Virus record (IMG/VR): IMGVR_UViG_3300043773_000401
Span: 1-64,000 of that record
DNA length: 64,000 nucleotides
From: a virus
Direction: 5' to 3' (one strand)
Both the position numbers and the translations under genes were made by a program. This document shows, piece after piece, positions 21,760-36,267 of the stretch. The notes under the pieces are model-generated. The model did no database searches and was not told the DNA's origin. It saw only the letters and a program-made list of their open reading frames with translations. Position 1 is the stretch's first letter. Each line of letters starts with the position of its first letter.

Positions 21760-22743
21760 ATGAGTTTAAAGCAAGTCTCAGAAAGAGATGTATGGGTAAA
21801 TACACTCAAGTATATCCAAAAGAGAAAGAAAGGTGAGGTTAAAAGTATCAAGACTCCCTGGTCTAAGTTTAATGATGCAACACTAGATGGTTTAGAGCTC
21901 AATTCAATGATTGTAATTGCAGCAAGACCAGGTACAGGTAAAACTTTTATTAAAGATCAACTAATCAATGAAGCTATTACTATTAATAAGGATATCCCTT
22001 TTAATGTACTAGAGTTTCAGTTTGAGATGGTTGATAAAGCAGCTAAGTCAAGAGAGCTTAGCTTTGCACTAGGATTAAACTACAAGAAGATTAATAGTGT
22101 AGGATCTCCATTATCAGATGCTGAATATGAGAGATGTAAAGACTATGCTAAGAGTAGGATTAGTTCTATAAATAGAAAGTATGTATTTGAACCTTGTACT
22201 GTCAATGAGATTAAAGAAGAAGTAGAGCACTGGTTTGAGGCTAATGCTAGAGAAGAAAATGGTGAGAAGGTATATGTACCTGGTATCATTACTCTAGATC
22301 ACTCATTCTTAGTGAAGCTAGCTCCATATGAGAAAGATAAGATGGAGACTCTATATAATCTAGGTGAGGTTATTACACAGACTAAGAGAAAGTATCCTGC
22401 AATATGGATTGTGCTTAGCCAGCTTAACAGAAATGTAGATAAGCCAGAGAGAAGTGAAGAAGGAAAGATAGGTAACTATATTCTAGACTCAGATATCTTT
22501 GGTGCAGATGCCTTGGTTCAACATGCAGATCTTGTAGTAGGTTTTAACAGACCTTCTAAAAGAAACATTAGAATCTATGGACCAGATAAGTTTATAATTG
22601 AGAGTGACAATATACTCGTTGCTCACTTCTTAAAGGTAAGATTTGGTGATACCCGTATAAGCTTTTTCAGGGCAGACTTTGAGAATCTCAGAATACATGA
22701 GATAGAGCCCCCACCAAGACAAGAGAAAATTTCACTTAAATAA
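21760..22743 (+). CDS. DnaB-type replicative helicase, 327 aa
   Basis: RecA-fold helicase core. Walker A is ARPGTGKT (55-62); the helicase motif around LEFQFEMVDKAAKSRELSF matches H1a of DnaB; Walker B is IITLDHSF (near 175-182); QLNRNVDKP (near 220) is the sensor/H3 element; HADLVVGFNRP follows. The N-terminal collar domain of full DnaB is absent (327 against about 450), as in short phage DnaB-like ATPases. It would unwind DNA at the fork with the primase at 24820. It starts an operon with its own host-type promoter. Confidence 0.85.
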   Translation: MSLKQVSERDVWVNTLKYIQKRKKGEVKSIKTPWSKFNDATLDGLELNSMIVIAARPGTGKTFIKDQLINEAITINKDIPFNVLEFQFEMVDKAAKSRELSFALGLNYKKINSVGSPLSDAEYERCKDYAKSRISSINRKYVFEPCTVNEIKEEVEHWFEANAREENGEKVYVPGIITLDHSFLVKLAPYEKDKMETLYNLGEVITQTKRKYPAIWIVLSQLNRNVDKPERSEEGKIGNYILDSDIFGADALVQHADLVVGFNRPSKRNIRIYGPDKFIIESDNILVAHFLKVRFGDTRISFFRADFENLRIHEIEPPPRQEKISLK

Positions 22744-22750
22744 ATAGAGT

Positions 22751-23299
22751 ATGTTAAAAACAAAAGAAGTAGGTCTAACTGCAGAACAAAAGAAGATAAA
22801 GTTAGCCGAGCTTAAGCGTTTTCATCAGACTAAGTTTGATGTACTAGGAGTTAAAGACCCCTTGTTCATACCAAAGATGGCTTACAAGCCTACTGGTAAG
22901 GATGATAAGGTAGTTAGTTTCTTCCCTAGTGAGCTTAAGAAAGGGCAAGACATTTATACTGAGTTTGTCAGCAGAGAGTATGACCCAGAAGATCTTCCAG
23001 AAAGAAGATTATGGAAATGGAGATACAATCCATATTGGGAAACTGAGTATGAAACAGTACAACATGATGCCCAAGGTAATGTAAGGTATCTAATACCTGT
23101 ACTAGAGTTGTTTCCTGTAGGACTGAATATTATACCTGCAGAGACAGCACAGATGAAAATGTTTGATAATTTAGTAGATTCAACAGATGGTGTTAATGCA
23201 CCTATTACAGAAATGACAATACTGGATTTTGCAGCTATTATGCTTAAGCAACCAGTAAGTAGTAAAGAATGGTTAAATAATATAATAAGAGGTAAATGA
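22751..23299 (+). CDS. Hypothetical recombination-region protein, 182 aa
   Basis: No family recognised. It starts with a basic helix (AEQKKIKLAELKRFHQTKF), has an aromatic central part (RRLWKWRYNPYWETEYETV) and an acidic C-terminus. It overlaps the Sak4-like gene by four bases and follows the helicase by eight, so it belongs to the replication/recombination operon. Confidence 0.55.
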   Translation: MLKTKEVGLTAEQKKIKLAELKRFHQTKFDVLGVKDPLFIPKMAYKPTGKDDKVVSFFPSELKKGQDIYTEFVSREYDPEDLPERRLWKWRYNPYWETEYETVQHDAQGNVRYLIPVLELFPVGLNIIPAETAQMKMFDNLVDSTDGVNAPITEMTILDFAAIMLKQPVSSKEWLNNIIRGK

Positions 23300-24048
23300 G
23301 TAAGATAACACTTCCAACAGGTATAGAACCTGCATCAATTAAAAGTCCTAAGAACTTAATAATCTTTTCTAAGCCTAAGGTAGGTAAGACTACATTACTG
23401 GCAGGATTAGACAATTGTTTGTTGCTAGATTTAGAACAAGGTTCAGACTATGTTGCTGCAATGAAAATCCAGGCTAACTCTGTAGATGAAATTAAGGAAA
23501 TTGGTAAAGCTATCAAAGAAGCTAACTATCCTTATAAGTATATTGCAGTTGATACTATAACAGCACTAGAAGAAATTTGTGTAGGCTATGCTGAAGAATT
23601 ATATTCTAAGAGCTCTATGGGTATGAATTGGTTTAAATCTGGAGGTGGTAAAGAAAAGTATGGTAGTATCCTTAACATGCCTAATGGTGCAGGGTATCCA
23701 TGGCTTAGAGATGCCTTTGTTAAAGTAGTTAACTATATCAGGACTTGGGCTCCTCATATAATTTTACTTGGTCACATTAAAGATGTCCAGTTAGATAAAG
23801 CAGGTGCAGAATTTAACACAATGGATTTGGATTTGACAGGAAAAATTAAGAGAATTGCAAGCTCAAAGTCTGATGCTATTGGTTACCTATACAGAAAAGG
23901 TAATAAAAACATCCTTAGTTTCAAGACTTCTGATGAAGTAGCATGTGGTGCAAGACCAGATCACTTAAAGAATCAGGAGATTGTTATCTCTGAGGTTGAA
24001 GAAAATGGTAATATAAAAGTATATTGGGACAAAGTATTTATTGATTAA
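23296..24048 (+). CDS. Sak4-like RecA-fold ATPase, 250 aa
   Basis: AAA_24-type phage nucleotide-binding protein (Sak4 group). Walker A SKPKVGKTT (25-33), LLLDLEQGSDYV after it, Walker B YKYIAVDTITALEE (about 80-93), and HIILLGHIKD with the His sensor. Sak4 proteins are minimal Rad51/RecA-like ATPases that assist SSB-dependent annealing in phage recombination. The next gene codes for a probable ssDNA-binding partner, the classical Sak4 neighbourhood. ATGA overlap with the previous gene. Confidence 0.8.
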   Translation: MSKITLPTGIEPASIKSPKNLIIFSKPKVGKTTLLAGLDNCLLLDLEQGSDYVAAMKIQANSVDEIKEIGKAIKEANYPYKYIAVDTITALEEICVGYAEELYSKSSMGMNWFKSGGGKEKYGSILNMPNGAGYPWLRDAFVKVVNYIRTWAPHIILLGHIKDVQLDKAGAEFNTMDLDLTGKIKRIASSKSDAIGYLYRKGNKNILSFKTSDEVACGARPDHLKNQEIVISEVEENGNIKVYWDKVFID

Positions 24049-24061
24049 ATTTTAAATAGTT

Positions 24062-24766
24062 ATGATTAACACATTAGATGTAAATGTAGAGTTAGGTTCA
24101 GGTGGTGGACCGAGTAAAGTATTAGAATATGGTAACCATGAAGTTACTGTAGTAAAAGTAATATTAGATGAAAATAGGTTTCAACCAGATTCTTATTTCC
24201 TAAAGTTTATTGTAGAAGGCCCAGATATGGGAGATGATTTCCAAGGTTTACTATTTGATAAGAATGATCCTAGTCTAGGAAGACACCGTGGTCAAGTAGG
24301 ATGGGTTAAAGCTAATCAATATGCTTTTGCAGATAAGAATGAAGGTGGTTTAGTAATTAAAAGAGATCAAGAGATCTTGAAATATATTAAATTGCTTGCA
24401 CTAGAATGTGAAGCAGGTGATTGGTTTATTGCACAAAATGGTAAGCATAGCACTATCCAGGAGTTTATCCAAGCAGTAAATGAATCTAAGTTCTTTAAAG
24501 ATAAACCACTTAGAGTTTGTATTGGTTCTAGAAGGTATGAGAGCAAAGGTTATATGAATAATGACTTGTTCTTAACCAGATGGACTAAGAAGAATAAACC
24601 ATTTGAGTCTGTATCTGTACCAGCAAGTGAGTCTATGATTCCTGTATTTAATGAAACAGAACATGTCTATACTAAGAAAGAAAAAGAAGTTTCTGGATTC
24701 AGCAGTGATGGAAGAGTAGAAGAGAAGAAAGTAAGCACCAAGTCTGGTGATGATTTTGACCTGTAA
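24062..24766 (+). CDS. Probable ssDNA-binding protein, 234 aa
   Basis: Located directly after the Sak4-like gene. The N-terminal half looks like an OB-fold-type binder (KVLEYGNHEVTVVKVILDE, SYFLKFIVEGPDMG). The C-terminus is a flexible charged linker ending GDDFDL, a typical acidic SSB-type tail. Such a protein with Sak4 would form a recombination pair. No exact family motif is visible, so position and tail carry the call. Confidence 0.55.
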   Translation: MINTLDVNVELGSGGGPSKVLEYGNHEVTVVKVILDENRFQPDSYFLKFIVEGPDMGDDFQGLLFDKNDPSLGRHRGQVGWVKANQYAFADKNEGGLVIKRDQEILKYIKLLALECEAGDWFIAQNGKHSTIQEFIQAVNESKFFKDKPLRVCIGSRRYESKGYMNNDLFLTRWTKKNKPFESVSVPASESMIPVFNETEHVYTKKEKEVSGFSSDGRVEEKKVSTKSGDDFDL

Positions 24767-24782
24767 TATTTATTATAATCAG

Positions 24783-24808
24783 GGGGAGTAAGAGATTGCT
24801 CCCCTTTA
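24783..24808 (+). terminator. Intrinsic terminator
   Basis: GGGGAG (24783-24788) pairs with CTCCCC (24799-24804), then TTTATT. A frame opening at 24796 inside it is not used; the primase start is 24820. Confidence 0.75.
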
Positions 24809-24819
24809 TTATTTGTACT

Positions 24820-25791
24820 ATGATCTATACTAGCAATGTCATACTATCAACTGATGAAATACCATCTACATGGATATTTGAGTACTATGCTCAATTACCA
24901 TATAAACTGGTAGGACAGTCAGCAAAGATTAAATCAATCTTTAACCCGAAAGATACAAACCCATCTCTAGTATTCTATGTAAAAGATGGTCAGTATAAGT
25001 TTAGAGATTTTTCAGCAGATATATCTGGTAATAAAGTATCCTTTGTAAAGAAACTACTAGAGAAGCAACTAAATAGAGAGATACCAATTAAAGATATTGA
25101 ATGTAAAATTATAGCAGACTATGTAGAGTATCTAGAAAATCATGATCATGAAGATATAAAGCTAGTAGAAGAAGAAAAGTGGAAGATTGTAGATTACAAA
25201 ACTAGAAGCTGGTACATGTATGATGCTAAGTACTGGACTGAATATGGTATAGGTTCTGATGTACTAGAGTTCTTTAATGTCAAGCCTCTGAAGAGTATTA
25301 TTATGAATAGAGGAATTGAGTATCTAGAAATATCTAGAGTCATGAGCTATGCATATACTCAGAAAGATGGCAGTATATACAAATTATATGTACCACTAGA
25401 TAATAAAGAGAAAAGATTCAAGAACTTTAATTCTAAGTATATCCAGGGTATGGATCAACTAAGTTATTCTAAACCTAATCTGGTTATATGCTCATCACTA
25501 AAAGATGCTATGGCTCTATATAGTTTTGGACTAGATCTAGATGTAATTGCACCAAACTCAGAAACTACTTTGATCTCACCAAGTATAATGGATACTCTAA
25601 AGAGTAGCTATCAAAGAATATGTATCTTATTTGACAATGATGATACCGGTAGAGCAGCTACAGCTAAATACCAAAAGAAGTATAATACTGAGTCTCTATA
25701 CCTACCCATAGAGAAAGATATATCAGATGCTGTAAAAGCACATGGTAGAGATACAATTAAACAAGAATTTATTAAAATTTTCAACACATGA
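24820..25791 (+). CDS. DnaG-type DNA primase (TOPRIM), 323 aa
   Basis: Makes RNA primers for DNA synthesis. The N-terminal region (IFNPKDTNPSLVFYVKDGQYKFRDF) matches the DNA-binding CHC2-like core of phage primases, but no CHC2 zinc cysteines are visible. The TOPRIM domain shows LVICSSLKDAMALYSFG (about 220-238), with Ser in place of the usual Glu, as in several phage primases, then SxE and LFDNDDTGRAA (about 271-281) with the metal Asp residues. Start at MIYTSNV, after the terminator. It precedes a GIY-YIG gene by an ATGA overlap. Confidence 0.8.
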   Translation: MIYTSNVILSTDEIPSTWIFEYYAQLPYKLVGQSAKIKSIFNPKDTNPSLVFYVKDGQYKFRDFSADISGNKVSFVKKLLEKQLNREIPIKDIECKIIADYVEYLENHDHEDIKLVEEEKWKIVDYKTRSWYMYDAKYWTEYGIGSDVLEFFNVKPLKSIIMNRGIEYLEISRVMSYAYTQKDGSIYKLYVPLDNKEKRFKNFNSKYIQGMDQLSYSKPNLVICSSLKDAMALYSFGLDLDVIAPNSETTLISPSIMDTLKSSYQRICILFDNDDTGRAATAKYQKKYNTESLYLPIEKDISDAVKAHGRDTIKQEFIKIFNT

Positions 25792-26219
25792 GTTGGATAT
25801 ATAACAGAGTGGAGTTTACTCCCGAGATGATTCCTGATGGAGCTATTGGCTTTGTATACTTAATGAGTGCCATTGTAGATGGTAAGTCAGTACTATACAT
25901 AGGCAAGAAGAACTTTTATACTGAGAAAAAGACTAAGCTTAAGAAGACTGAAAAACCAAATGACAAGAGGATGAAAGATTATAAGCTGGTCAAGAAATTA
26001 AACTATCAAAACTATTTCAGCAGCAATGATGTTCTTAAAGAAGCTCACAAGAAAGGAATTCAAATTAAACGGGAGATACTCCATATCTGTTATTCTAAGA
26101 CAGAACTTACTTACATGGAGACTAAACTCCAGTTTGTATATGGAGTACTAGAAAACTCAGATTACTTAAATGGTAACATACTAGGTAAATTTTATAAGCA
26201 AAATGGTAAATTGGGATGA
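25788..26219 (+). CDS. GIY-YIG-type endonuclease (SegE-like), 143 aa
   Basis: Nuclease core with GFVYLM (21-26) and YIGKKNF (37-43), the two strands of the GIY-YIG motif. A basic stretch (KKTKLKKTEKPNDKRM), YQNYFSSND, then a catalytic-type ELTYMETKLQF and a terminal N (ILGKF preceded by LNGN) follow, as in T4 SegE-like proteins. It could be a homing nuclease, or a DNA-processing enzyme that shares the primase operon (ATGA overlap). Confidence 0.75.
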   Translation: MSWIYNRVEFTPEMIPDGAIGFVYLMSAIVDGKSVLYIGKKNFYTEKKTKLKKTEKPNDKRMKDYKLVKKLNYQNYFSSNDVLKEAHKKGIQIKREILHICYSKTELTYMETKLQFVYGVLENSDYLNGNILGKFYKQNGKLG

Positions 26220-26541
26220 TTTAAAAATCAATCTCTGTACATACTTATACATCCATCAAGACATAGCCTACAATACTGTAGAGTTTCATTTTAATGTAAA
26301 TACTAATTATTATAATGAGCCATATATTTCTGTGGTTTCAGTATATCCTGGTTATATGTCTGATTCTAAAACTACAGGATACATAGTAGATATTTTAATA
26401 GACTATATGAAATACTCAGATGATGAGATAAATAAAGGCTATGTAATGATTGATAAAGACGGTAATGTTGAGATATGGTTGTTTCAGGAAGATAAAAAAC
26501 AAAAAGTAAAATCTTTTAATATAAAAGAATATGGTACATAA
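26203..26541 (+). CDS. Hypothetical protein, 112 aa
   Basis: No family recognised. Beta-rich with many Tyr (YNTVEFHFNVNTNYYNEPYIS), then a DGNVEIWLF strand. It overlaps both neighbours and heads the group that leads into the MoxR/VWA module. Confidence 0.5.
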   Translation: MVNWDDLKINLCTYLYIHQDIAYNTVEFHFNVNTNYYNEPYISVVSVYPGYMSDSKTTGYIVDILIDYMKYSDDEINKGYVMIDKDGNVEIWLFQEDKKQKVKSFNIKEYGT

Positions 26542-26863
26542 TGCAATGATACTAGAACTATTAGATCTAGGTGCTGTAAAAGCAGTAATAAATTACTCTG
26601 GAGGTGGAGATTCTGGAGCTGTAGATGAAGTAGAATTTCGTGATGCTAATGATAATGTTCTAAAACTAGATGATAGACGTGAAGAAATAGAAGATATGGT
26701 ATATCCTTTATTAAATACACTAGAAGACTGGTGGAATAATGAAGGAGGATATGGACTAATGGTTCTTGATCTAAGAACAGGTGAGTATCATATTGAGAAC
26801 ACTATCTATATCCAACATACTGAAGAGTTTACACATACTGGAACTTTAGAATTAAAAGAATGA
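26531..26863 (+). CDS. DUF6878-like hypothetical protein, 110 aa
   Basis: Contains VINYSGGGDSGAVDEVEF near the start, DWWNNEGGYGLMVLDLRTGEYHI and TGTLELKE at the end. The GGGDSG...DEV, then GGYG layout matches small proteins found beside VWA/MoxR genes (DUF6878-type by my recollection). It forms an ATGA-coupled pair with the DUF6915-like gene. Role in the module unknown. Confidence 0.55.
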   Translation: MVHNAMILELLDLGAVKAVINYSGGGDSGAVDEVEFRDANDNVLKLDDRREEIEDMVYPLLNTLEDWWNNEGGYGLMVLDLRTGEYHIENTIYIQHTEEFTHTGTLELKE

Positions 26864-27231
26864 GTCATCCTGTAGAGCATGCTAAATCCTCTGTAAGAAA
26901 ATGGGGAGGATCTGTAGAAGATTACCTACCAATACATGAATGGTTTGATGAAACCAAATCTTGGTATGGACATAGTTTACATAGGATGTTTAGACATCAC
27001 TCAGAAGGAATATTTGAGTGTGAAAGAGTATTTGGTAAATACATTATCAATTCAGTAGGTAAGAGAATATACACTAGGTATGTAGGAGAACAGCATGTAA
27101 AAGAAGATTGCTATAACTATATACCTTCTGCTAAAGAATGGATATTGAATATGAATAATCCAACAGAATGGATGCTAAGAACTATTAAAATAGAAAAAGA
27201 AAATGACAAAGACCAAACTAACACCAACTGA
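26860..27231 (+). CDS. DUF6915-like protein, 123 aa
   Basis: A His-rich conserved order: HPVEHAKSSVRKWGG, EDYLPIHEWFDETKSW, HRMFRHHSEGIFECERVFG, NSVGKRIYTRYVGEQHVKED, and IPSAKEWI. This fits the DUF6915 pattern (H..HA...., HH.EGI., EQHV.ED) from memory. The invariant His and Glu residues could bind metal. It stands between a DUF6878-like gene and the VWA protein. Confidence 0.6.
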   Translation: MSHPVEHAKSSVRKWGGSVEDYLPIHEWFDETKSWYGHSLHRMFRHHSEGIFECERVFGKYIINSVGKRIYTRYVGEQHVKEDCYNYIPSAKEWILNMNNPTEWMLRTIKIEKENDKDQTNTN

Positions 27232-27607
27232 TTATCATAGTATGGTTAACTTGCTTAACTCTACAGATAAAGAAAATACTACAGTAGTATTATCTATACT
27301 AGAAAATCTAGATTTTACTGCTAACTTACCGTATATATTACTTTTGTTAAAGAGAATGAACAGACAAGATAGGGAAAAGATAGATGAGTATTCTAATCTT
27401 TGGAAGAATCTAAATAACATAGGTATTCAAACCAGTAATCCTATTAGAATGGCATTAATATTTCAGAAGATAAAACATCATGTAGATAGAGAAGCTGTAG
27501 AGTTTGTAATGAATGAAGGCTTTATTAATGATGTATTAAAGCATTTACAAGACTGGGGATTTGATTTCATAGATGAAGTAGATATAACTTTAAAACTTAG
27601 AGAATGA
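27203..27607 (+). CDS. Hypothetical protein with the S-x-D-x-x-N domain, 134 aa
   Basis: A helical protein with the segment LLNSTDKENTTVVLSILENLDF followed by leucine-rich helices. The same arrangement occurs in the two 354-residue proteins downstream (FKSYDESNHKIAQEILYN and FDSEDPSNHVVAMEIMAN), so all three share a domain that looks like a HEAT-type or helical scaffold. The family is not recognised. ATGA-coupled to the VWA gene. Confidence 0.55.
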   Translation: MTKTKLTPTDYHSMVNLLNSTDKENTTVVLSILENLDFTANLPYILLLLKRMNRQDREKIDEYSNLWKNLNNIGIQTSNPIRMALIFQKIKHHVDREAVEFVMNEGFINDVLKHLQDWGFDFIDEVDITLKLRE

Positions 27608-28782
27608 ATCTAAATGAGAATCTAGCAAAGGTCAGTAAAGATCTTATGCTTAAAGAGCCCTTCTATGGTTTATATCTATTGATGCTGAATAAGCATTGGT
27701 CAGATAAAGTACCAACAGCAGGTGTGTATATGAAAGGTATTAACTATCAAATTGATATTAATGCTGAGTTCTGGAATAGTCTAGAACACAACCATAAGAT
27801 AGGTCTTCTAAAGCATGAGCTATTGCATATTGCATTCTTTCATTTACTTAGAAGAGATGAGTTTCCAAATAAACAACTAGCTAATATTGCCATGGACTTG
27901 GAGATTAACCAGTATATAGATAGCCAGTATCTACCAGAAGGTGGTATGACACTTGAATTGTTTAAGGATCTTAATCTAGAACCAAAGAAAGGTACAAGAT
28001 ATTATTATGATAAGCTTCAACAAGAAGTAGATAATAATCAAAAGATTCAGAAGATCCTGCAAGCTATGGGTGATGGAGAGGCTAGAGATGGAGATGGTAC
28101 TCTAGTTCCTAACCACGACTGGGAAGCATTTGATGAGTTATCTGATGCTGAGAAGAAATTACTTGGTAGTCAGACAGACTTTCACTTAAAGCAACTAGCA
28201 GATGCTATGAGTAAAGGTAGAGGTACTATACCAGGAGAGCTATCTGATTATATTGCTAAACTTCTTAATCCTGAACCTGCTAAGTTTGATTGGAAAGGTT
28301 ATCTTAGAAGATTTGCAGGTGGATCTATTAAAGTATATACTAAGAAACTTAGAAGAAAGATAAACAGGAGATATGAAGAGAATCCTGGTTTGAAGATTAA
28401 ACCAAAGAGACATGTCCTTGTAGCAATAGATACTTCTGGTTCTGTAAGCAATGATGAGCTTGTAGAATTCATGAATGAGATACATCATATACATAAAACA
28501 GGATCTGATATTACAGTAGTACAGTGTGATACAGCCATTAGTAGTATATTACCCTATAAACCAAATTGTGATATTACAATTAAAGGTAGAGGAGGAACTG
28601 ATTTTGATCCGGTAATTGAGTATTTTAATGCTAACTTAAATAAATATACATGTCTTATTTATCTGACTGATGGTGAAGCACCAGCACCAGATCCTAAGCC
28701 TAAAGGTAAGACATTGTGGGCACTATCTAGTATTTCAAAAGAGGTAGATCATCTACCAGGAGTTACAATTAAATTAAATTAA
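27604..28782 (+). CDS. VWA-domain protein with N-terminal metallopeptidase-like domain (DUF2201-type), 392 aa
   Basis: The N-terminal domain has KHELLHIAFFH (H71-E72-x-x-H75), a zincin-type motif, followed by NIAMDLEINQYI. The C-terminal domain is von Willebrand A-like: VAIDTSGSVS (about 273-282; D-x-S-x-S MIDAS), T in GGTDF and a later TDG. This is the organisation of DUF2201-type VWA proteins that act with a MoxR AAA+ ATPase, encoded next (eight-base gap). Such pairs are thought to remodel or insert cofactors into target complexes. The target here is unknown. Confidence 0.8.
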   Translation: MNLNENLAKVSKDLMLKEPFYGLYLLMLNKHWSDKVPTAGVYMKGINYQIDINAEFWNSLEHNHKIGLLKHELLHIAFFHLLRRDEFPNKQLANIAMDLEINQYIDSQYLPEGGMTLELFKDLNLEPKKGTRYYYDKLQQEVDNNQKIQKILQAMGDGEARDGDGTLVPNHDWEAFDELSDAEKKLLGSQTDFHLKQLADAMSKGRGTIPGELSDYIAKLLNPEPAKFDWKGYLRRFAGGSIKVYTKKLRRKINRRYEENPGLKIKPKRHVLVAIDTSGSVSNDELVEFMNEIHHIHKTGSDITVVQCDTAISSILPYKPNCDITIKGRGGTDFDPVIEYFNANLNKYTCLIYLTDGEAPAPDPKPKGKTLWALSSISKEVDHLPGVTIKLN

Positions 28783-28789
28783 ACACATT

Positions 28790-29965
28790 ATGGCACAAGT
28801 AAATTTGAACATTGACGAACTAAAGACATTCTTTGGACACATTGTAAAGAATAATCAGCACATACAAGCAGAAGGTAAAGTACCTGTTGCAGTAAATATA
28901 GAAGGTGAAGCGGGTATTGGTAAGACTAGTAGTATATTACAGCTCTCTAAGGAGTTGAACATGAGTATGGTTAAGTTATCTTTATCTCAGATAGAGGAGA
29001 TAGGTGACTTAGTGGGTTTTCCAGTTAAGGAGTTTGAGATGATTAAGGAAGATGGTACTACTGCTTGGGTTCAAGAATCTACTATGCCTATGTACATACA
29101 AAGTAAGTACAAGCCAACTGGAGAAAAGAGAATGACACATGCTGCTCCTGAGTGGATTCAGGGTAAGGAAGAAGGTGGGTTCTTGATCTTAGATGACTAT
29201 ACTCGTGCTGATCAAAGATTCATGCAGGCATGTATGGAGATCATAGATCGTCAAGAATATATCTCTTGGAAGTTACCTAAGAACTGGCATGTTATCTTAA
29301 CTTCTAATCCAGATAATGGTAACTATCTTGTTACTAGCTTGGATGATGCTCAGAAGACTAGGTTTATTACAGTAAATCTAACATTTGATATTGATTGCTG
29401 GGCTCGTTGGGCTGAGTCTGCTAATATAGATTCTAGATGTATTAACTTCTTATTGATGCATCCAGATCTAGTTACAGAGAAGACTAATGCTAGGAGTATT
29501 ACTACATTCTTTAACTCAATTAGTTCTATACCAGATTTCCAGGAGAATCTACCATTGATCCAAATGATTGGTGAAGGTTCTGTAGGAGCTGAGTTCAGTA
29601 CTATGTTTACTATGTTTATCAATAATAGATTGGATAAAATGATACATCCTAAGGATATCATTAATAATCCAAACTGGGCATATGTAAAAGGTGAGTTGCT
29701 AAACTCTATTGGTAAAGATGATTCTTATCGTGCAGACATTGCTAGTGTGATGACTACTAGAACTATCAACTATGCATTGAATTATGCAGAAAAGAATACT
29801 GTAGATCAGAAGATCATTGATAGAATCATAGCTCTTACTACAGATGAAGATGTATTTACTAATGATCTTAAGTATTATATTATCAAGGGTATTGTAAATG
29901 GTAACAAGACTAAGTTTACCAAGCTTATGATGAACCCTGAAGTTGTGAAAATGGCAGTAAAATAA
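28790..29965 (+). CDS. MoxR-type AAA+ ATPase, 391 aa
   Basis: Walker A GEAGIGKTSS (39-48), Walker B GGFLILDDYTRAD (about 129-141), sensor 1 LTSNPDNGNY (near 170) and an arginine finger region (AQKTRFITVNL). A conserved IGDLVGFP near 79 and WIQGKEEG suit the MoxR group. The C-terminal half is helical without known domains. It follows the VWA gene and, with it, forms a typical chaperone pair. Its 391 residues exceed the family's common 310-330. Confidence 0.85.
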   Translation: MAQVNLNIDELKTFFGHIVKNNQHIQAEGKVPVAVNIEGEAGIGKTSSILQLSKELNMSMVKLSLSQIEEIGDLVGFPVKEFEMIKEDGTTAWVQESTMPMYIQSKYKPTGEKRMTHAAPEWIQGKEEGGFLILDDYTRADQRFMQACMEIIDRQEYISWKLPKNWHVILTSNPDNGNYLVTSLDDAQKTRFITVNLTFDIDCWARWAESANIDSRCINFLLMHPDLVTEKTNARSITTFFNSISSIPDFQENLPLIQMIGEGSVGAEFSTMFTMFINNRLDKMIHPKDIINNPNWAYVKGELLNSIGKDDSYRADIASVMTTRTINYALNYAEKNTVDQKIIDRIIALTTDEDVFTNDLKYYIIKGIVNGNKTKFTKLMMNPEVVKMAVK

Positions 29966-29971
29966 TAGCCT

Positions 29972-31036
29972 ATGGGATTATATTTATTTCCCACTGTAGA
30001 TATGACAAAGATGGCAAAGCTTCGTTTCTTACGGGCTTTGCCTTATCTACATAGTGGTAATAGTAGTAATAGTTTAACTTTATTGTTTGTTGCAGATAAA
30101 ATTGAGAATGTTAAAAAGATAGAAGACATTTTCACAGGAACAAAAGGTACAATAAAGAAAGGAGATAAAGTTTATATTTTACCAGCATGTAAGATACCGG
30201 GATATAAACTAAAAGAATATGCTAAAACAGTAGGAGCTACAATCACTAGTAACTATGAAAAAGCTACAGTAATAGTTGGAACATCTGGATACAGAGGTAG
30301 ATCAGAGTTTAGAGATACTCCTATAAAGTCTATGGTTACTAACTTTGGATATTATATTAAAGAGTTTAAAACTGAAAATCTTCGTACTTATATAGAAAAT
30401 AATAAAGTACTAAAAGAGTTATCAATCATAGGACATAACCTAGATGAGTATGAATCTTTTGTTACTAATATGAGATTCCAGGATAGCTTAATGGGGGATC
30501 ATGCATTTGCAATTACACCACTAGGAGCAGATATACTATACAATATCTTTGCTAATAAAGTAACAGTGATATCAGAAGATGAACTAGTTAAAGATATAGC
30601 TCCAACTGGTATACTTACAGATGAGATGGTAGCATCACTAAAAGAAATGTTTAAATCTTATGATGAATCTAATCACAAAATAGCTCAAGAGATTTTGTAT
30701 AACTGTGATGTAGAGAATTCTATTTATAATATCTATAAGTTAGTAAGAGACGTTGGTGTCTGGAAGCTTATGGATAATAGAAATAAGAATGCTAAACTAT
30801 TTGCAGAGAGATGTAGTATTTATAAATTACAGGATGCAGATGCATATAAGATTATTAAACTCTTAAATGAAAATTATCCTGAACAGCTGACAACAGAAGT
30901 ATTCAATGAATTACTAGCAGGTGCAGCTAAAAGATATATGAGACATATAACTGACTCAGAAATATTTACAGTAGAGGTAAAACTATCTGATAAGTTTAAC
31001 AAGTTTAACCCAGAATTCACTTTTAAAATTCCTTAG
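29972..31036 (+). CDS. Hypothetical protein of the MoxR/VWA module, paralogue A, 354 aa
   Basis: No known family. The stretch about 70-110 (VYILPACKIPGYKLKEYAKTVGATI...ATVIVG) resembles a BRCT-like or Rossmann-like element, because short beta strands flank a YAKTVGA helix end. From about 210 a helical part contains the S-x-D-x-x-N domain. It lines up over its whole length with the next gene, which is also 354 residues, so they are an old duplication. It probably serves as an adaptor or substrate of the MoxR/VWA pair. Confidence 0.6.
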   Translation: MGLYLFPTVDMTKMAKLRFLRALPYLHSGNSSNSLTLLFVADKIENVKKIEDIFTGTKGTIKKGDKVYILPACKIPGYKLKEYAKTVGATITSNYEKATVIVGTSGYRGRSEFRDTPIKSMVTNFGYYIKEFKTENLRTYIENNKVLKELSIIGHNLDEYESFVTNMRFQDSLMGDHAFAITPLGADILYNIFANKVTVISEDELVKDIAPTGILTDEMVASLKEMFKSYDESNHKIAQEILYNCDVENSIYNIYKLVRDVGVWKLMDNRNKNAKLFAERCSIYKLQDADAYKIIKLLNENYPEQLTTEVFNELLAGAAKRYMRHITDSEIFTVEVKLSDKFNKFNPEFTFKIP

Positions 31037-31037
31037 T

Positions 31038-32102
31038 ATGTTTAAAGAAATGTTTTATTTAACTCAAGTAACTTCAACAAGTAATACACTTGTACTTGAT
31101 AAGTATATGGTTAATGATTTTAAAGTAGAGTATGATAGTGATGGTGATTTAGAACCTGACACATCAGAATTAAATAGAAATAATATTAACTTTAAAAAAG
31201 AAATAGATATTAATAGTATTAAAACTATTTATCTTAGTTCTCATTGTGGTGCTCCTAGAGTTAAAGTTAGAGAGTGGGCAGAGAAGAATAATATAAAACT
31301 AGTAAGAGATGCTAGTAAAGCAGATGCTTGTTTCTATTCAGAAAAAGATTATGATTGTGCAAGTAGATTATATTGTCAGGTTTTGAGTAAACAATTACTT
31401 ATTAAACTACTCACTAGTTCAGTAAATAAACATAGTAATACTATAGAAATTATTAGAACTATTCAGAACATGCATGATGTAGAATACTTCTTTACTAATA
31501 GAACTGTGTTTTATAATAATCCATTACTAGTAAACGGTAAAGAATCTAAAACCTGGACTTGTCAATATGTATATGACCAAGATGCTTATGAATCTGTAAG
31601 TCATTTACTAATTGCTGATAATATTTATCATGTAGATGTACTAAATAAATTTATTAACAATGGTGTGGTGATAAATAGAGAAATGTATAATTCACTATGC
31701 TTAATGTTTGATAGTGAGGATCCTAGTAATCATGTGGTTGCTATGGAGATTATGGCAAATTCTGATTTTGAGAAAAGTGCACTATATTTGTACAGGTTAT
31801 TCATGCATTATGTTAATAATAAAATTTATAATAGAAAGGAAAGAAACCATGTAAACTTTAAGAATTTAGTAAAGTGGATGAATAAAGGTACATATCATGA
31901 AGATGATACAGCTGAATTCTTAATTGAAAAAGGTTTGTTTACTCAGTCTGTGGCAGATGAATTACTAGGAATATTTAAAGAGGATAAAGATAGATATATG
32001 ACAATGAACTCTCTTACTTTTACTGATATAGATTTTACTGATGATATAAAGAGTAAGATAATTCTAGATCCTGTAGTAGAAGAAAAATTAGAACAACTAT
32101 GA
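31038..32102 (+). CDS. Hypothetical protein of the MoxR/VWA module, paralogue B, 354 aa
   Basis: Parallel to the preceding gene: IKTIYLSSHCGAPRVKVREWAEKNNI corresponds to VYILPACKIPGYKLKEYAKTVGA, and LMFDSEDPSNHVVAMEIMAN to MFKSYDESNHKIAQEIL. The N-terminal 60 residues are longer and more acidic (DSDGDLEPDTSELN). Identity is low, so the duplication is old and roles may have diverged. It overlaps the nuclease by four bases. Confidence 0.6.
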   Translation: MFKEMFYLTQVTSTSNTLVLDKYMVNDFKVEYDSDGDLEPDTSELNRNNINFKKEIDINSIKTIYLSSHCGAPRVKVREWAEKNNIKLVRDASKADACFYSEKDYDCASRLYCQVLSKQLLIKLLTSSVNKHSNTIEIIRTIQNMHDVEYFFTNRTVFYNNPLLVNGKESKTWTCQYVYDQDAYESVSHLLIADNIYHVDVLNKFINNGVVINREMYNSLCLMFDSEDPSNHVVAMEIMANSDFEKSALYLYRLFMHYVNNKIYNRKERNHVNFKNLVKWMNKGTYHEDDTAEFLIEKGLFTQSVADELLGIFKEDKDRYMTMNSLTFTDIDFTDDIKSKIILDPVVEEKLEQL

Positions 32103-33166
32103 TAAACACAGAAGTTAATGCTATTAGACTAGAAGAAGAATTTTATGGTAGGTATCACTACTTTAGTTATTCAGCAATTAACAGACTGTTATTCTCACCT
32201 AAGTTATTTTACAATCACTATATTCTTGGTGAAAGAGAAGATAAATTAGAATCTCATTTGATAGAGGGCAAGGTTATCCATTGCCTTCTATTAGATAGAG
32301 ATAAGTTTGAAGAGCAGTTTGCATTGTCACCGGATAAACTTCCAACTGATAGTGTGAAGACTGTAATAGATAGAGTATATAACTATCATATGCAGCAAGT
32401 TAAAGAAGGCTTCTCAGTAGAGACTGCCACATTAGATTATTATGCAGATATAATTTTACAGACTCTAGTAGAAGTAAACTTGCATCAAGCATTAACAGAT
32501 GATAAGAAAGCAGATAAAGAAGGGGTCCAAAAGACCGGAGACCAAAAGAGATTAGAGAAAGTTATAACAGATCAAACAGCTAGTTACTTTGAGTTCTTAA
32601 AGATAAAAGAAAAGAGAGACATAATAGATCAAGCAACGTATAATAAATGTATGGATATTGTTTCTATACTGGAGCAAGATCCTAAAGTAAGAATGTTACT
32701 GAATCTTGATGATGATGGGAGAACTACATTTAATGAGTATCCATTATCCTTTGAATCTAAAGCTCACGGTTTTGGGTTTAAAGGTATAGTAGATAATTTC
32801 TCTATAGACTTTGCTCACCGCAAGATTTATATTAATGACCTAAAGACATCTGCCAAGTCAATTGATAAGTTTCCTGAAAGTGTAGAATATTACAAGTACA
32901 ATCTCCAAGCTATTATGTATGTCAGATTAGTATCATGGTATATAGAGAATCATTTTGGTATTGATGTAGATGGTACATGGACTATAGACTTACATTTTGT
33001 AGTAATAGATCCGTACAAGCAGGTCTATGCTTACAAAGTATCTGATGATACTATGGTTAGATGGTTAGATGAGTTCTCTGATGTACTTAAGAAGGTTCAG
33101 TGGCATTATGACAACAGAAGATATGACTTACCCTATAGTTTAGCTGTTGATAACTTAACACTGTAA
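32099..33166 (+). CDS. PD-(D/E)XK nuclease, RecB/Cas4-like exonuclease, 355 aa
   Basis: Early FSYSAINRLLFSPKLFYNHYI matches the entry helix of RecB-like phage nucleases, followed by SHLIEGKVIHCLL (the E/H region). The catalytic core is FKGIVDNFSID (Asp about 231), INDLKTSAKS (D-x-K about 246-248) and YNLQAIMYVRL (Q-x-x-x-Y about 267-272). Family members are 5'-3' exonucleases or recombination nucleases, and with Sak4 and the SSB-like gene would form a recombination set. ATGA overlap with the preceding module. Confidence 0.8.
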   Translation: MINTEVNAIRLEEEFYGRYHYFSYSAINRLLFSPKLFYNHYILGEREDKLESHLIEGKVIHCLLLDRDKFEEQFALSPDKLPTDSVKTVIDRVYNYHMQQVKEGFSVETATLDYYADIILQTLVEVNLHQALTDDKKADKEGVQKTGDQKRLEKVITDQTASYFEFLKIKEKRDIIDQATYNKCMDIVSILEQDPKVRMLLNLDDDGRTTFNEYPLSFESKAHGFGFKGIVDNFSIDFAHRKIYINDLKTSAKSIDKFPESVEYYKYNLQAIMYVRLVSWYIENHFGIDVDGTWTIDLHFVVIDPYKQVYAYKVSDDTMVRWLDEFSDVLKKVQWHYDNRRYDLPYSLAVDNLTL

Positions 33167-33173
33167 ATACCAT

Positions 33174-33743
33174 ATGAGCAAAATTAAGGACTTATATCGG
33201 AACTATTTTCAAAAGTCTAGGATATTTTTATATCCAGCATTAGACATAAAGAAGGGTAATAGTGTTACTCCTATTGAAACCTATATATCTTGGAAAGGAT
33301 ATGTAGAACAAACAGACCGGAGGTTAATCTGTCTCTATCATCTAAGAAATGATGTAGAATATAGAACCTTTGAGAAATCCAAGTTACTAAAGAGTAGTTT
33401 ATTTGAAGACTTTAGAGAAGTAGAGGGTGGTAAAGGAGTGTATATATTTAACTATGACATGTATAGTAAAGACTGGCAGCATTTTCTGAATGGTGAGTAT
33501 TCTAAATTTAGTTTCCCACTAAAGAAGAAGATCAGAGACTTTATAGGCTCAGCATCTAGTAACTCTGTATATGTAGATAGTTATTTGTATCCTGAGAAGT
33601 ATTATAGAATATATGCAGATATACTTGGTGTAGATGAAGATACTCTTAGATCTACTGGGCAATTATGTGATAAACCAGATTTTAACAAAGAATTGTTAGA
33701 AATATCTGTAAAAGATTTGCAAATAAATAAAATTATCACTTAA
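33174..33743 (+). CDS. Hypothetical protein, 189 aa
   Basis: No family recognised. Basic and aromatic, starting MSKIKDLYRNYFQKSRIFLYPAL; an internal FNYDMYSKDWQHFLNGEYSKF, and a helical end (LLEISVKDLQINKI). It follows the exonuclease by seven bases, in the same operon. Confidence 0.55.
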   Translation: MSKIKDLYRNYFQKSRIFLYPALDIKKGNSVTPIETYISWKGYVEQTDRRLICLYHLRNDVEYRTFEKSKLLKSSLFEDFREVEGGKGVYIFNYDMYSKDWQHFLNGEYSKFSFPLKKKIRDFIGSASSNSVYVDSYLYPEKYYRIYADILGVDEDTLRSTGQLCDKPDFNKELLEISVKDLQINKIIT

Positions 33744-33748
33744 ATTTG
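33716..33748 (+). promoter_or_regulatory. Bacteroidota-type promoter
   Basis: TTTG at 33716-33719 and TAAATTTG at 33741-33748, 21 bases apart. Transcription would begin near 33755, 17 bases before the ATG at 33772. It lies in the end of the preceding gene. Confidence 0.65.
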
Positions 33749-33771
33749 TGCTCTATTAAAAACCAAAGTAT

Positions 33772-34170
33772 ATGAATTCAATGATGTTAGTATCTGGTAC
33801 ATTCCAGAACATCCCAACTTTTAGAATGATCCCATTAACTAAAGAGTGTCCATATGTAGAGGCATACTATAATCCTATGTATAATGTACTAGGTATTGTA
33901 TCTCTAAATAAGAAAGCAGCTTTACATCTTACTAATAAGTTAGATGATAATGGAGATCCTATATTGAGAAAGGATTTTAAAGCTAGAGAAGAACAGAAGC
34001 AATCTCCTTATAAACAACACAAGGTTACCTTGGAAAACTATGAAGAATTCTTTATTACAAATAGAGATGAGATCAAGTGGTTTATTGAGAAGTTTGCAGC
34101 TAACATGAATGAATTTGACTATAGTAAATATCTTACTAGTATTGCAGCAGAAGAAGTTCCTGCTCCATAA
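33772..34170 (+). CDS. Hypothetical protein, 132 aa
   Basis: No family recognised. Starts MNSMMLVSGTFQNIPTFRMIPLTKECPY; includes YYNPMYNVLGIVS and NRDEIKWFIEKFAANMNEF. Has its own host-type promoter and a terminator with a GAAA loop, so it is monocistronic and may be abundant. The C-terminus is AAEEVPAP. Confidence 0.6.
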   Translation: MNSMMLVSGTFQNIPTFRMIPLTKECPYVEAYYNPMYNVLGIVSLNKKAALHLTNKLDDNGDPILRKDFKAREEQKQSPYKQHKVTLENYEEFFITNRDEIKWFIEKFAANMNEFDYSKYLTSIAAEEVPAP

Positions 34171-34207
34171 CTGGTATTAAATTAATGTGTTTGGCGACTG
34201 ATAACTA

Positions 34208-34230
34208 GGGGGTAGAAATATCCCCTTTTT
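34208..34230 (+). terminator. Intrinsic terminator with GAAA loop
   Basis: GGGGGTA (34208-34214), loop GAAA, TATCCCC (34219-34225, one wobble), then five Ts. Confidence 0.85.
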
Positions 34231-34272
34231 ATTTAATTATAACGGGGAGACAGCTTAACTGAATAAAACATT

Positions 34273-36267
34273 ATGGAGAAAAAGTCACATTGGGTAATGG
34301 ACTATGAGACTTTATTGAATTGCTTTGTAGCTGTATTTGAGCACTATAAAGAAGATGAGATAAAGATATTTGTAGTATCCAGACTAAGAAATGATATAAA
34401 GGAGCTATACAAGTTCCTAGAAAGAAACAAGGCTAATAGAGAGTATCACATATCTTTCAATGGTTTAGGATTTGACTCACAGATAACTGAGTTTATACTA
34501 AATAACAAGAAGAGTTTTATAGAAGGTGATCCTCAATATATTGCCAACATGATCCATGAGAAAGCTAATGAGATAATATCATCTCAAGAACGTGGAGAAT
34601 TTTTAGAGTTTAGTGAAGGCAAGCTTAGCATCCCACAGATTGATGTATTTAAACTTAATCACTGGGATAATCCAGCAAAGAGATCTAGTCTAAAGTGGAT
34701 ACAATATAGTATGGATTGGTATAATATTCAAGAGATGCCTATCCATCATAGTAGTTATATAGATAAAATGAAAGATCTAGAAACTATTATTGGTTATTGT
34801 ATTAATGATGTTAGGTCTACTAAACAGATATATAACCTATCAAAAGATTTGGTAGGACTTAGAAAAGCATTAACAGAACAATACAATCTTAAACTTTATA
34901 GTGCATCTGAACCAAGGATAGCTAAAGAGATATTCCTGGAGTTGTTATGTAGAGATCTTAAACTTCCTAAGTATGATGTAAGACAATACAGAACTAATAG
35001 AAGCAAGATAAAAGTAAAAGATATAATATTACCTTATATAAAATTTAGAACCCCGGAGTTTCAGAGTATCCTAGAAAACTTTAACAAGTTAGTTATTGAT
35101 CCACAGAATACTAAGGGAGGATTCAAGTATTCAATTACTCACAAGAAAGTAAGAACTGATTTTGGTCTAGGTGGTGTTCATGGTGCAAAGGAAGCAGGAG
35201 AATATGCAGCAAGTGAAGATATGATAATCATGACTTCAGATGTTACTAGCTTCTATCCTAACCTAGCTATTAGAAATAAATGGGCTCCAGCACACTTATC
35301 TAAAGATGTATTTTGTCAGTTGTATGAATGGTTCTTTGAGGAAAGAAAAAAGATACCCAAGAAAGATCCAAGAAATTATGTATACAAGATTATATTGAAT
35401 TCAACTTATGGTTTGAGCAATGACCGTAATAGTTTTCTATATGATCCAGAGTTTACAATGAAGATTACCATTAATGGTCAATTGAGTCTGATGATGTTGT
35501 ATGAGATGTTGTCTACAGGTATCCCAGAGTCTAAGCCTTTGATGCAGAATACAGATGGTCTAGAGATGATAATCCCAAGACAGTACAAAGAGAAGTATCT
35601 AGAGATATGCAAAGAGTGGGAAGATATGACTCAGCTACAATTAGAGCATGATGAGTATCAGAAACTATTCTTAGCAGATGTGAATAATTATATTGCTGTA
35701 AATAACTACAAGGAAGTATCTAAAGAAGTGTATGAGGAAGTAAAATCTAGCAGCCCTCATTATCTATTCAAGGAAGAATCTAGTAAATATTTCTATGCAG
35801 CTACTAAATGTAAAGGTAGATTTGAGTTTCATGGTCTGCCGTTACACAAGAATAAAAGCTATCTAGTAATTAGAAAAGCAGTATATAACTATTTTGTTCA
35901 TAGTATAGCTCCTACAGATTATCTAGAACAGAATAGAAATATTTATGATTATTGTGCTGGTGTAAAAATAAAAGGAGACTGGCACTTTCAAAGTATATGT
36001 TACAAGAATGGCAAGCTTATAGAGCAGGATCTACAGAACATCTTAAGATATTATATATCTGATAATGGATGTAAGATTCTTAAGAAGCACAAAACTGATA
36101 ATAGAGTTATCCAATTAGAAAGTGGTAACTGGTTACAGACAGTGTTTAATACTCTAGAGAAGAAGCCATGGGAAGAATATCATATTAATCTTGATTACTA
36201 TATGAAAGAGATTAATAAGGAGATTCACAATATCACAATTAGTAAAAATCAATTAAAATTATTTTAG
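34273..36267 (+). CDS. Family B DNA polymerase, 664 aa
   Basis: Replicative polymerase with both active sites. Exonuclease: MDYETL (D10, E12), SFNGLGFDS (N63, D68), YCINDVRST (about 175-183). Polymerase: motif A SDVTSFYPNLAI (about 322), motif B KIILNSTYGL (about 370), motif C QNTDGLEMI (about 424), where the usual DTD is NTD. Length is on the short side, as in phage group B polymerases. The C-terminus NQLKLF is a classical bacterial beta-clamp-binding motif, so the polymerase probably uses the host sliding clamp. It starts after a strong terminator. Confidence 0.92.
   Translation: MEKKSHWVMDYETLLNCFVAVFEHYKEDEIKIFVVSRLRNDIKELYKFLERNKANREYHISFNGLGFDSQITEFILNNKKSFIEGDPQYIANMIHEKANEIISSQERGEFLEFSEGKLSIPQIDVFKLNHWDNPAKRSSLKWIQYSMDWYNIQEMPIHHSSYIDKMKDLETIIGYCINDVRSTKQIYNLSKDLVGLRKALTEQYNLKLYSASEPRIAKEIFLELLCRDLKLPKYDVRQYRTNRSKIKVKDIILPYIKFRTPEFQSILENFNKLVIDPQNTKGGFKYSITHKKVRTDFGLGGVHGAKEAGEYAASEDMIIMTSDVTSFYPNLAIRNKWAPAHLSKDVFCQLYEWFFEERKKIPKKDPRNYVYKIILNSTYGLSNDRNSFLYDPEFTMKITINGQLSLMMLYEMLSTGIPESKPLMQNTDGLEMIIPRQYKEKYLEICKEWEDMTQLQLEHDEYQKLFLADVNNYIAVNNYKEVSKEVYEEVKSSSPHYLFKEESSKYFYAATKCKGRFEFHGLPLHKNKSYLVIRKAVYNYFVHSIAPTDYLEQNRNIYDYCAGVKIKGDWHFQSICYKNGKLIEQDLQNILRYYISDNGCKILKKHKTDNRVIQLESGNWLQTVFNTLEKKPWEEYHINLDYYMKEINKEIHNITISKNQLKLF

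Follow-up and report, generated by a model that had tools for sequence, protein, structure and literature searches.

What might a MoxR-type ATPase and a von Willebrand factor A (vWA) protein with a metallopeptidase-like domain be doing in the middle of a phage replication operon? The question is raised by IMG/VR virus record IMGVR_UViG_3300043773_000401, of whose 114,817 bp we analysed bases 1-64,000 (the window). By its portal, terminase and head/capsid genes the source phage is crAss-like. Positions 26531-32102 hold a tight operon that encodes a DUF6878 protein, a DUF6915 protein, a 134-residue protein (p134), a zincin-vWA protein, the MoxR ATPase and two 354-residue paralogues (p354a and p354b), and adjoining genes of this module overlap or lie no more than 7 nt apart. 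Comparison with related loci established intact catalytic motifs, strict synteny, a domain shared by p134 and p354, a gradient of conservation and, in relatives, insertions within catalytic codons.

We read the module as the genes of a MoxR-vWA remodelling machine, possibly a proteolytic one, which would act at the replisome early or midway through infection, with p134 and p354 as its adaptors or its clients; this is our leading interpretation, held with confidence just short of even. The catalytic motifs, the fixed place in the operon, the early or middle timing of homologous pairs and the conservation gradient are together best fitted by a remodelling machine at work during replication.

Catalytic motifs of the MoxR-vWA pair

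An earlier reading of the same DNA (the original prediction), whose named open reading frames (ORFs) were all recovered at the positions it gave, had called three of the proteins DUF6878-like, DUF6915-like and DUF2201-type, and all three pass the Pfam cut-offs, the vWA protein with DUF2201 at an expectation (E) value of 3e-19 and DUF2201_N at 5e-17. The HELLH that it had picked out in the vWA protein is present and extends to HExxHxxxxH, and the metal ion-dependent adhesion site (MIDAS) motifs DxSGS, GGT and TDG are intact, so that a vWA domain, a complete MIDAS and an N-terminal HExxH zincin are joined in one protein. In 13 sequences of the family from six phage lineages (the crAss-like clade and Moorella, Bacillus, Alteromonas, Pseudomonas and Thermus phages), the zinc-site residues H71, E72, H75 and H80, the residues N94, A96, D98 and N102 (NxAxDxxxN) and the MIDAS residues D276, S278, S280, T332 and D356 are invariant; HExxH is kept in 30 of 30 homologues. 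PHROGs labels this family (phrog_1314) 'HNH endonuclease', as do many GenBank records; its residues do not support that name, apparently a propagated mislabel.

The MoxR protein scores weakly in Pfam (AAA_5, E 9e-4, below the cut-off). Its assignment as a MoxR AAA+ ATPase, which the original prediction had also made, is upheld by a match to phrog_1297 'ATPase' (Table 1) and by midasin as the best sequence match in the PDB (E 2.9e-5). Walker A, Walker B and sensor 1 are kept in 19 of 19 non-redundant homologues.

Linkage of the module genes

Scans of IMG/VR returned at least 541 contigs with the MoxR protein as anchor, 433 with p354 and 561 with the vWA protein, and the best 80 matching contigs per anchor were examined. 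Nearly all of these loci have the same order: Toprim-GIY-DUF6878-DUF6915-p134-vWA-MoxR-p354-PDDEXK-x-x-PolB. Where enough sequence precedes the anchor, MoxR adjoins p354 in 69/69 p354-anchored loci and p134 directly precedes vWA in 73/73 vWA-anchored ones, MoxR follows vWA directly in 51 of 54 vWA-anchored loci (the rest being insertions or contig ends), and homologues of DUF6878, in an unchanged position, and of DUF6915 occur in 75 and 74 of the 80 MoxR-anchored loci; because the contigs are related and partly identical between anchors, these counts demonstrate stable linkage within one phage group and not independent events. The genes thus co-occur, whereas a failure to do so in other genomes would, by its own account, have refuted the original prediction, and the set is kept as a unit in many genomes, lying between primase and DNA polymerase genes within the replication region. 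No cellular or host relative was returned by two scans of genome contigs.

The original prediction had drawn the module from 26203 to 32102. Its first ORF (26203-26541) is present in only two near-identical contigs and was ruled out as a member, so the module starts at 26531; the rest of the interval stands. In Streptomyces phage Daubenski (L164, 2907-5393) a DUF6915 gene lies three genes past one annotated as a Ro-like RNA-binding protein, a family that carries a vWA domain; this vicinity may be due to chance.

Partner proteins p134 and p354

A domain common to p134 and the two paralogues was among the original claims, and profile comparison with HHalign bears it out: p134 (a profile of 28 sequences) matches p354b at E 5e-13 and p354a at 9e-9, most of it aligned to the C-terminal half of p354, and the p354a and p354b types match each other at 6e-30 over 287 columns. 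The S-x-D-x-x-N...A-x-x-I-(L/M) element by which the domain had been recognised needs one amendment, since its conserved 'A', found in many relatives, gives way to V in p134 of the window. Relatives carry one or two copies of p354.

For the window's p354b AlphaFold2 gave a partial model, with a mean predicted local distance difference test (pLDDT) score of 70; the model of a relative in locus L036 (65 sequences) reaches a mean of 88 and is alpha/beta in its N-terminal part, helical in its C-terminal part. Searches of p354 against the PDB, Pfam and PHROGs gave nothing significant, nor did the better L036 model against the PDB, and no effector domain was found in the family. The structural matches in BFVD were all to proteins encoded by uncultured phages, of whose genomes one is crAss-like and two are podoviral. 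The N-terminal part gave a weak BRCT_2 signal (best E 0.026, in 2 of 25 members), and Foldseek paired p354 with the PARP1 BRCT domain at a probability of 0.84 but an E of 0.37. An acidic stretch with an aromatic tip (e.g. DDFEWF) closes 49 of 99 distinct p354 tails, compared with 28 of 360 in the background; in these relatives the tail resembles that of single-stranded DNA-binding protein (SSB).

These proteins could instead be separate replication proteins that merely share an operon with MoxR and vWA, which we consider improbable. The core pair does occur in five other phage lineages with no p134 or p354 detected near it; set against this, vWA-MoxR has proteins with the p134 domain on both sides in essentially every locus, and the rest of the genome has none: the domain profile finds exactly three copies, all inside the module.

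Insertions in catalytic codons of relatives

The window's own MoxR and vWA genes are uninterrupted. In relatives, tblastn found MoxR interrupted by about 1 kb in 19 contigs at three sites, namely in the P-loop (GEAGI/GKT), at residue 73 and after Walker B (DDYTRA/D), and vWA interrupted within HExxH (HEL/LH) and the MIDAS (GRGG/TDF). The interrupted MoxR genes include those of L160, L146, L130, L217, L167, L195 and L163, with two inserts in a single gene in L160 and in L146, and the vWA genes those of L107, L139, L154 and L127. PolB was interrupted once, by about 1 kb, and DnaB and DUF6915 not at all, in module-centred loci that sample PolB and DnaB less (140 and 125 loci, against 221).

Rfam identified group I introns in the MoxR genes of L160 (two), L167 and L217, and the remaining scanned inserts had no Rfam match. 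ORFs within the inserts read, by eye, as GIY-YIG-like or LAGLIDADG-like. Inteins were ruled out by the many in-frame stops. Homing introns favour conserved codons of essential genes, and the inserts therefore support strong constraint on the catalytic sites of both proteins. Separately, MoxR of L213, L218, L220, L222, L229, L232 and L173-L176 contains in-frame, highly charged segments of about 70-100 residues around residues 61-124; such shorter insertions (L173-L176, L213, L218 and others) were rejected as introns and are extra protein segments.

Homologous pairs in other phages

A MoxR-vWA(peptidase) pair is already known in phages. The vWA protein is encoded in 525 cultured phage records (tblastn), and in the N4-like phages (Schitoviridae) gp24 and gp25 are core genes, classed as middle genes in N4 (PMC4193335). 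There, as in the window, a MoxR-type ATPase is paired with a zincin-vWA protein and genes for helicase and DNA polymerase are close by, and the window's vWA protein is 28% identical to that of the N4-like phage LUZ7 over 95%. Unlike in the window, the ATPase gene comes first, with a small gene between the two in LUZ7, and no p134, p354, DUF6878 or DUF6915 was detected around gp24/gp25. In LUZ7, MTATph1, phiFa, AD45 and AR9 profile searches recovered both proteins (vWA, E 5e-25 to 6e-52; ATPase, 1e-12 to 3e-4), and their genes lie close together, near helicase or replication genes in MTATph1, LUZ7 and phiFa and behind an annotated early promoter in AR9.

Group 2.2 jumbo phages also carry the pair, the vWA protein having an N-terminal metallopeptidase, and a role in virion assembly has been proposed for it (Iyer et al. 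2021, PMC7824862). The AR9/PBS1 pair (g028/g029) has the same two proteins with the same fusion; the differences from the window are the jumbo genomes, the proposed virion role and the lack of p134 or p354 around the AR9 pair. Were that proposal to extend to the window, the module would encode a chaperone or peptidase for virion assembly, by analogy to the MoxR-vWA pair of Acidianus two-tailed virus. Besides the published proposal, some genes near gp24/gp25 encode virion proteins in one N4-like phage (PMC4193335). We nevertheless think this role rather unlikely here: the module lies in the + strand replication block, away from the - strand structural block, and both the early promoter of AR9 and the middle class of N4 precede assembly. 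Judged by where the module lies and by the timing reported for homologous pairs, replication or host takeover is favoured over the assembly of virions.

Cellular systems offer a model of how the module could work. In RavA-ViaA, CbbQ-CbbO and midasin an AAA+ ring and a MIDAS-bearing part remodel a protein complex, which gives the general picture of MoxR rings working with such partners; they are distant in sequence, and the window's partner has a zincin domain and belongs to a phage operon. Yutin et al. (2021, PMC7886860) described a crAss-like replication block that shares with the window DnaB, primase, AAA ATPase, PDDEXK, PolB and UDG types, whereas MoxR, vWA, p134 and p354 are not in that description. 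A full-text literature search, which misses most subscription journals, found no paper joining 'crAss-like' and 'MoxR'. The original suggestion that a phage set of this kind had not been described fails for the core pair and survives for the rest: what is new is that the pair sits in crAss-like phages, at a fixed position after primase and before DNA polymerase, and is accompanied by p134 and p354.

Conservation gradient

Median identity to the window (phmmer, 29 loci with the full cassette) was highest for MoxR (70.4%), DUF6915 (69.0%), AAA_24 (67.1%), PolB (62.2%), GIY (61.9%) and vWA (59.1%), lower for DnaB (48.9%), PDDEXK (44.6%), Toprim (41.5%) and DUF6878 (34.4%), and lowest for p134 (30.5%), p354a (28.1%) and p354b (27.6%). 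MoxR is therefore the most conserved protein of the cassette in a sample that favours MoxR-similar loci, having been collected through MoxR, and p134 and p354 are the least conserved, with true medians that may be lower still since phmmer could miss weak homologues. Alignments of the whole p134 and p354 families offered no conserved stretches that a scan of a collection could use.

This gradient bears on another explanation, that the machine serves host takeover or counter-defence by unfolding or cutting a host protein (a polymerase inhibitor, a defence protein or a part of the host replisome), with p134 and p354 as its target-recognition arms. Partners that diverge most while the ATPase diverges least would suit it, as would the variable copy number of p354 (one or two), the early or middle timing in AR9 and N4, and a zincin site that looks intact. 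The module proteins, however, show no likeness to PADLOC models or known effectors; accessory counter-defence genes are not usually held in strict synteny amid replication genes, and the core pair belongs to the N4-like core set across different hosts. We regard host takeover as possible but doubtful. The original prediction had also tied MoxR/vWA pairs to conflict systems; vWA-MoxR-associated systems of that sort are on record (PMC7159879), and the link found no backing here, since none of the seven module proteins matched PADLOC and no effector domain was found in the p354 family.

Genomic setting

tblastn with the portal protein matched mainly crAss-like genomes, the best being Leptolyngbya phage Lbo-JY46, a cyanophage (34% over 84%), followed by csAssE-Sib and Cellulophaga phi17:2. 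Terminase, portal and head PHROGs lie in a - strand structural block, apart from the + strand replication block, which contains a DnaB-like helicase, a Sak4-like AAA_24 ATPase, a Toprim primase, a PDDEXK exonuclease, a DNA polymerase, uracil-DNA glycosylase (UDG) and a deoxynucleoside monophosphate kinase around the module (Table 1).

Table 1. Positions in the window of the module genes, their catalytic motifs and the adjoining replication genes
Feature	Coordinates	Strand	Evidence
Upstream replication genes: DnaB-like helicase, 182-aa protein, Sak4-like AAA_24 ATPase, 234-aa protein with SSB-like tail, Toprim primase, GIY-YIG protein	21760..26219	+	Relatives keep order
DUF6878 protein, 110 aa, usual first module gene	26531..26863	+	Pfam DUF6878, E 2.2e-10
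DUF6915 protein, 123 aa	26860..27231	+	Pfam DUF6915, E 1.7e-40
p134, 134 aa, stand-alone copy of the shared helical domain with S-x-D-x-x-N element	27203..27607	+	HHalign
Zincin-vWA protein (DUF2201_N + DUF2201), relative of N4 gp25	27604..28782	+	Pfam, phrog_1314
Zinc-site codons HELLHIAFFH, residues 71-80 of vWA protein	27814..27843	+	
MIDAS motif DTSGS, vWA residues 276-280, completed by T332 and D356	28429..28443	+	
MoxR-type AAA+ ATPase, relative of N4 gp24	28790..29965	+	phrog_1297, E 7e-36
MoxR Walker A GEAGIGKT, residues 39-46	28904..28927	+	
MoxR Walker B FLILDD, residues 131-136	29180..29197	+	
p354a, alpha/beta N-terminal part and C-terminal shared helical domain (30602-30997)	29972..31036	+	HHalign
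p354b, paralogue of p354a, shared domain 31659-32054	31038..32102	+	HHalign, AlphaFold2 model
Downstream replication genes: PDDEXK exonuclease, two small proteins, DNA polymerase	32099..36267	+	Relatives keep order

The DNA polymerase (34273-36267) ends in NQLKLF, and in relatives in QLSLF or QLTLF. Termini of the QLxLF type match the bacterial sliding-clamp-binding motif; the clamp of the host may serve this polymerase. The 234-aa protein (24062-24766) beside the Sak4-like ATPase is otherwise unassigned, has a conserved acidic-hydrophobic tail (DFDL, DFEL, DFSLD) and could be an SSB. Three giant ORFs (2584, 3777 and 2243 aa) occupy 38116-63934 on the - strand, where the crAss transcription block is expected. 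Between 21760 and 36269 most starts are preceded by A-rich regions and no clear Shine-Dalgarno sequence, a pattern usual for Bacteroidota hosts. A scan for sigma-70 promoters did no better than chance.

Discussion

In the remodelling machine that we favour, MoxR would form an ATP-driven ring, and the vWA protein would sit on it and grip a target through its metal-bound MIDAS. The zincin domain may cut that target or a processed partner. p134 and p354, which share what appears to be a helical protein-binding domain, would be adaptors for the target, or else the clients that are remodelled; as adaptors they would recruit the machine to the replication complex of the phage in early or middle infection. 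A best-conserved part of the operon, dedicated partners and, in relatives, introns within catalytic codons argue that the MoxR-vWA pair is essential and catalytic. The position of the module and the timing of homologous pairs make virion assembly the less likely role.

Three observations weigh against a role at the replisome, for which a place in the operon is in any case indirect evidence. p134 and p354 change far faster than the replisome proteins (28-30% identity against 49-62%), which could fit a host target, and such fast evolution keeps a target of that kind in view. The window's own p354 tails (FTFKIP and EEKLEQL) have no aromatic tip. Finally, vWA was not detected in seven reference crAss-like genomes by a search that did find it in two positive controls, which argues that crAss-like phages do not generally need it for replication; p354 was not found in these genomes either, the positive controls having been run for vWA only. 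A broader form of the replisome reading, in which the pair is a general replisome remodeller of N4-like, jumbo and crAss-like phages, tethered by p134/p354 adaptors through the helical domain and, in many relatives, the SSB-like tail, is speculative and in our judgement unlikely.

In N4-like phages MoxR-vWA belongs to the core genes but has no assigned function, and many other phages carry the pair too; the present module offers concrete candidate partners and residues for work on it. A role at the replisome, if true, would answer what N4 gp24 and gp25 do and would compete with the published proposal of virion assembly.

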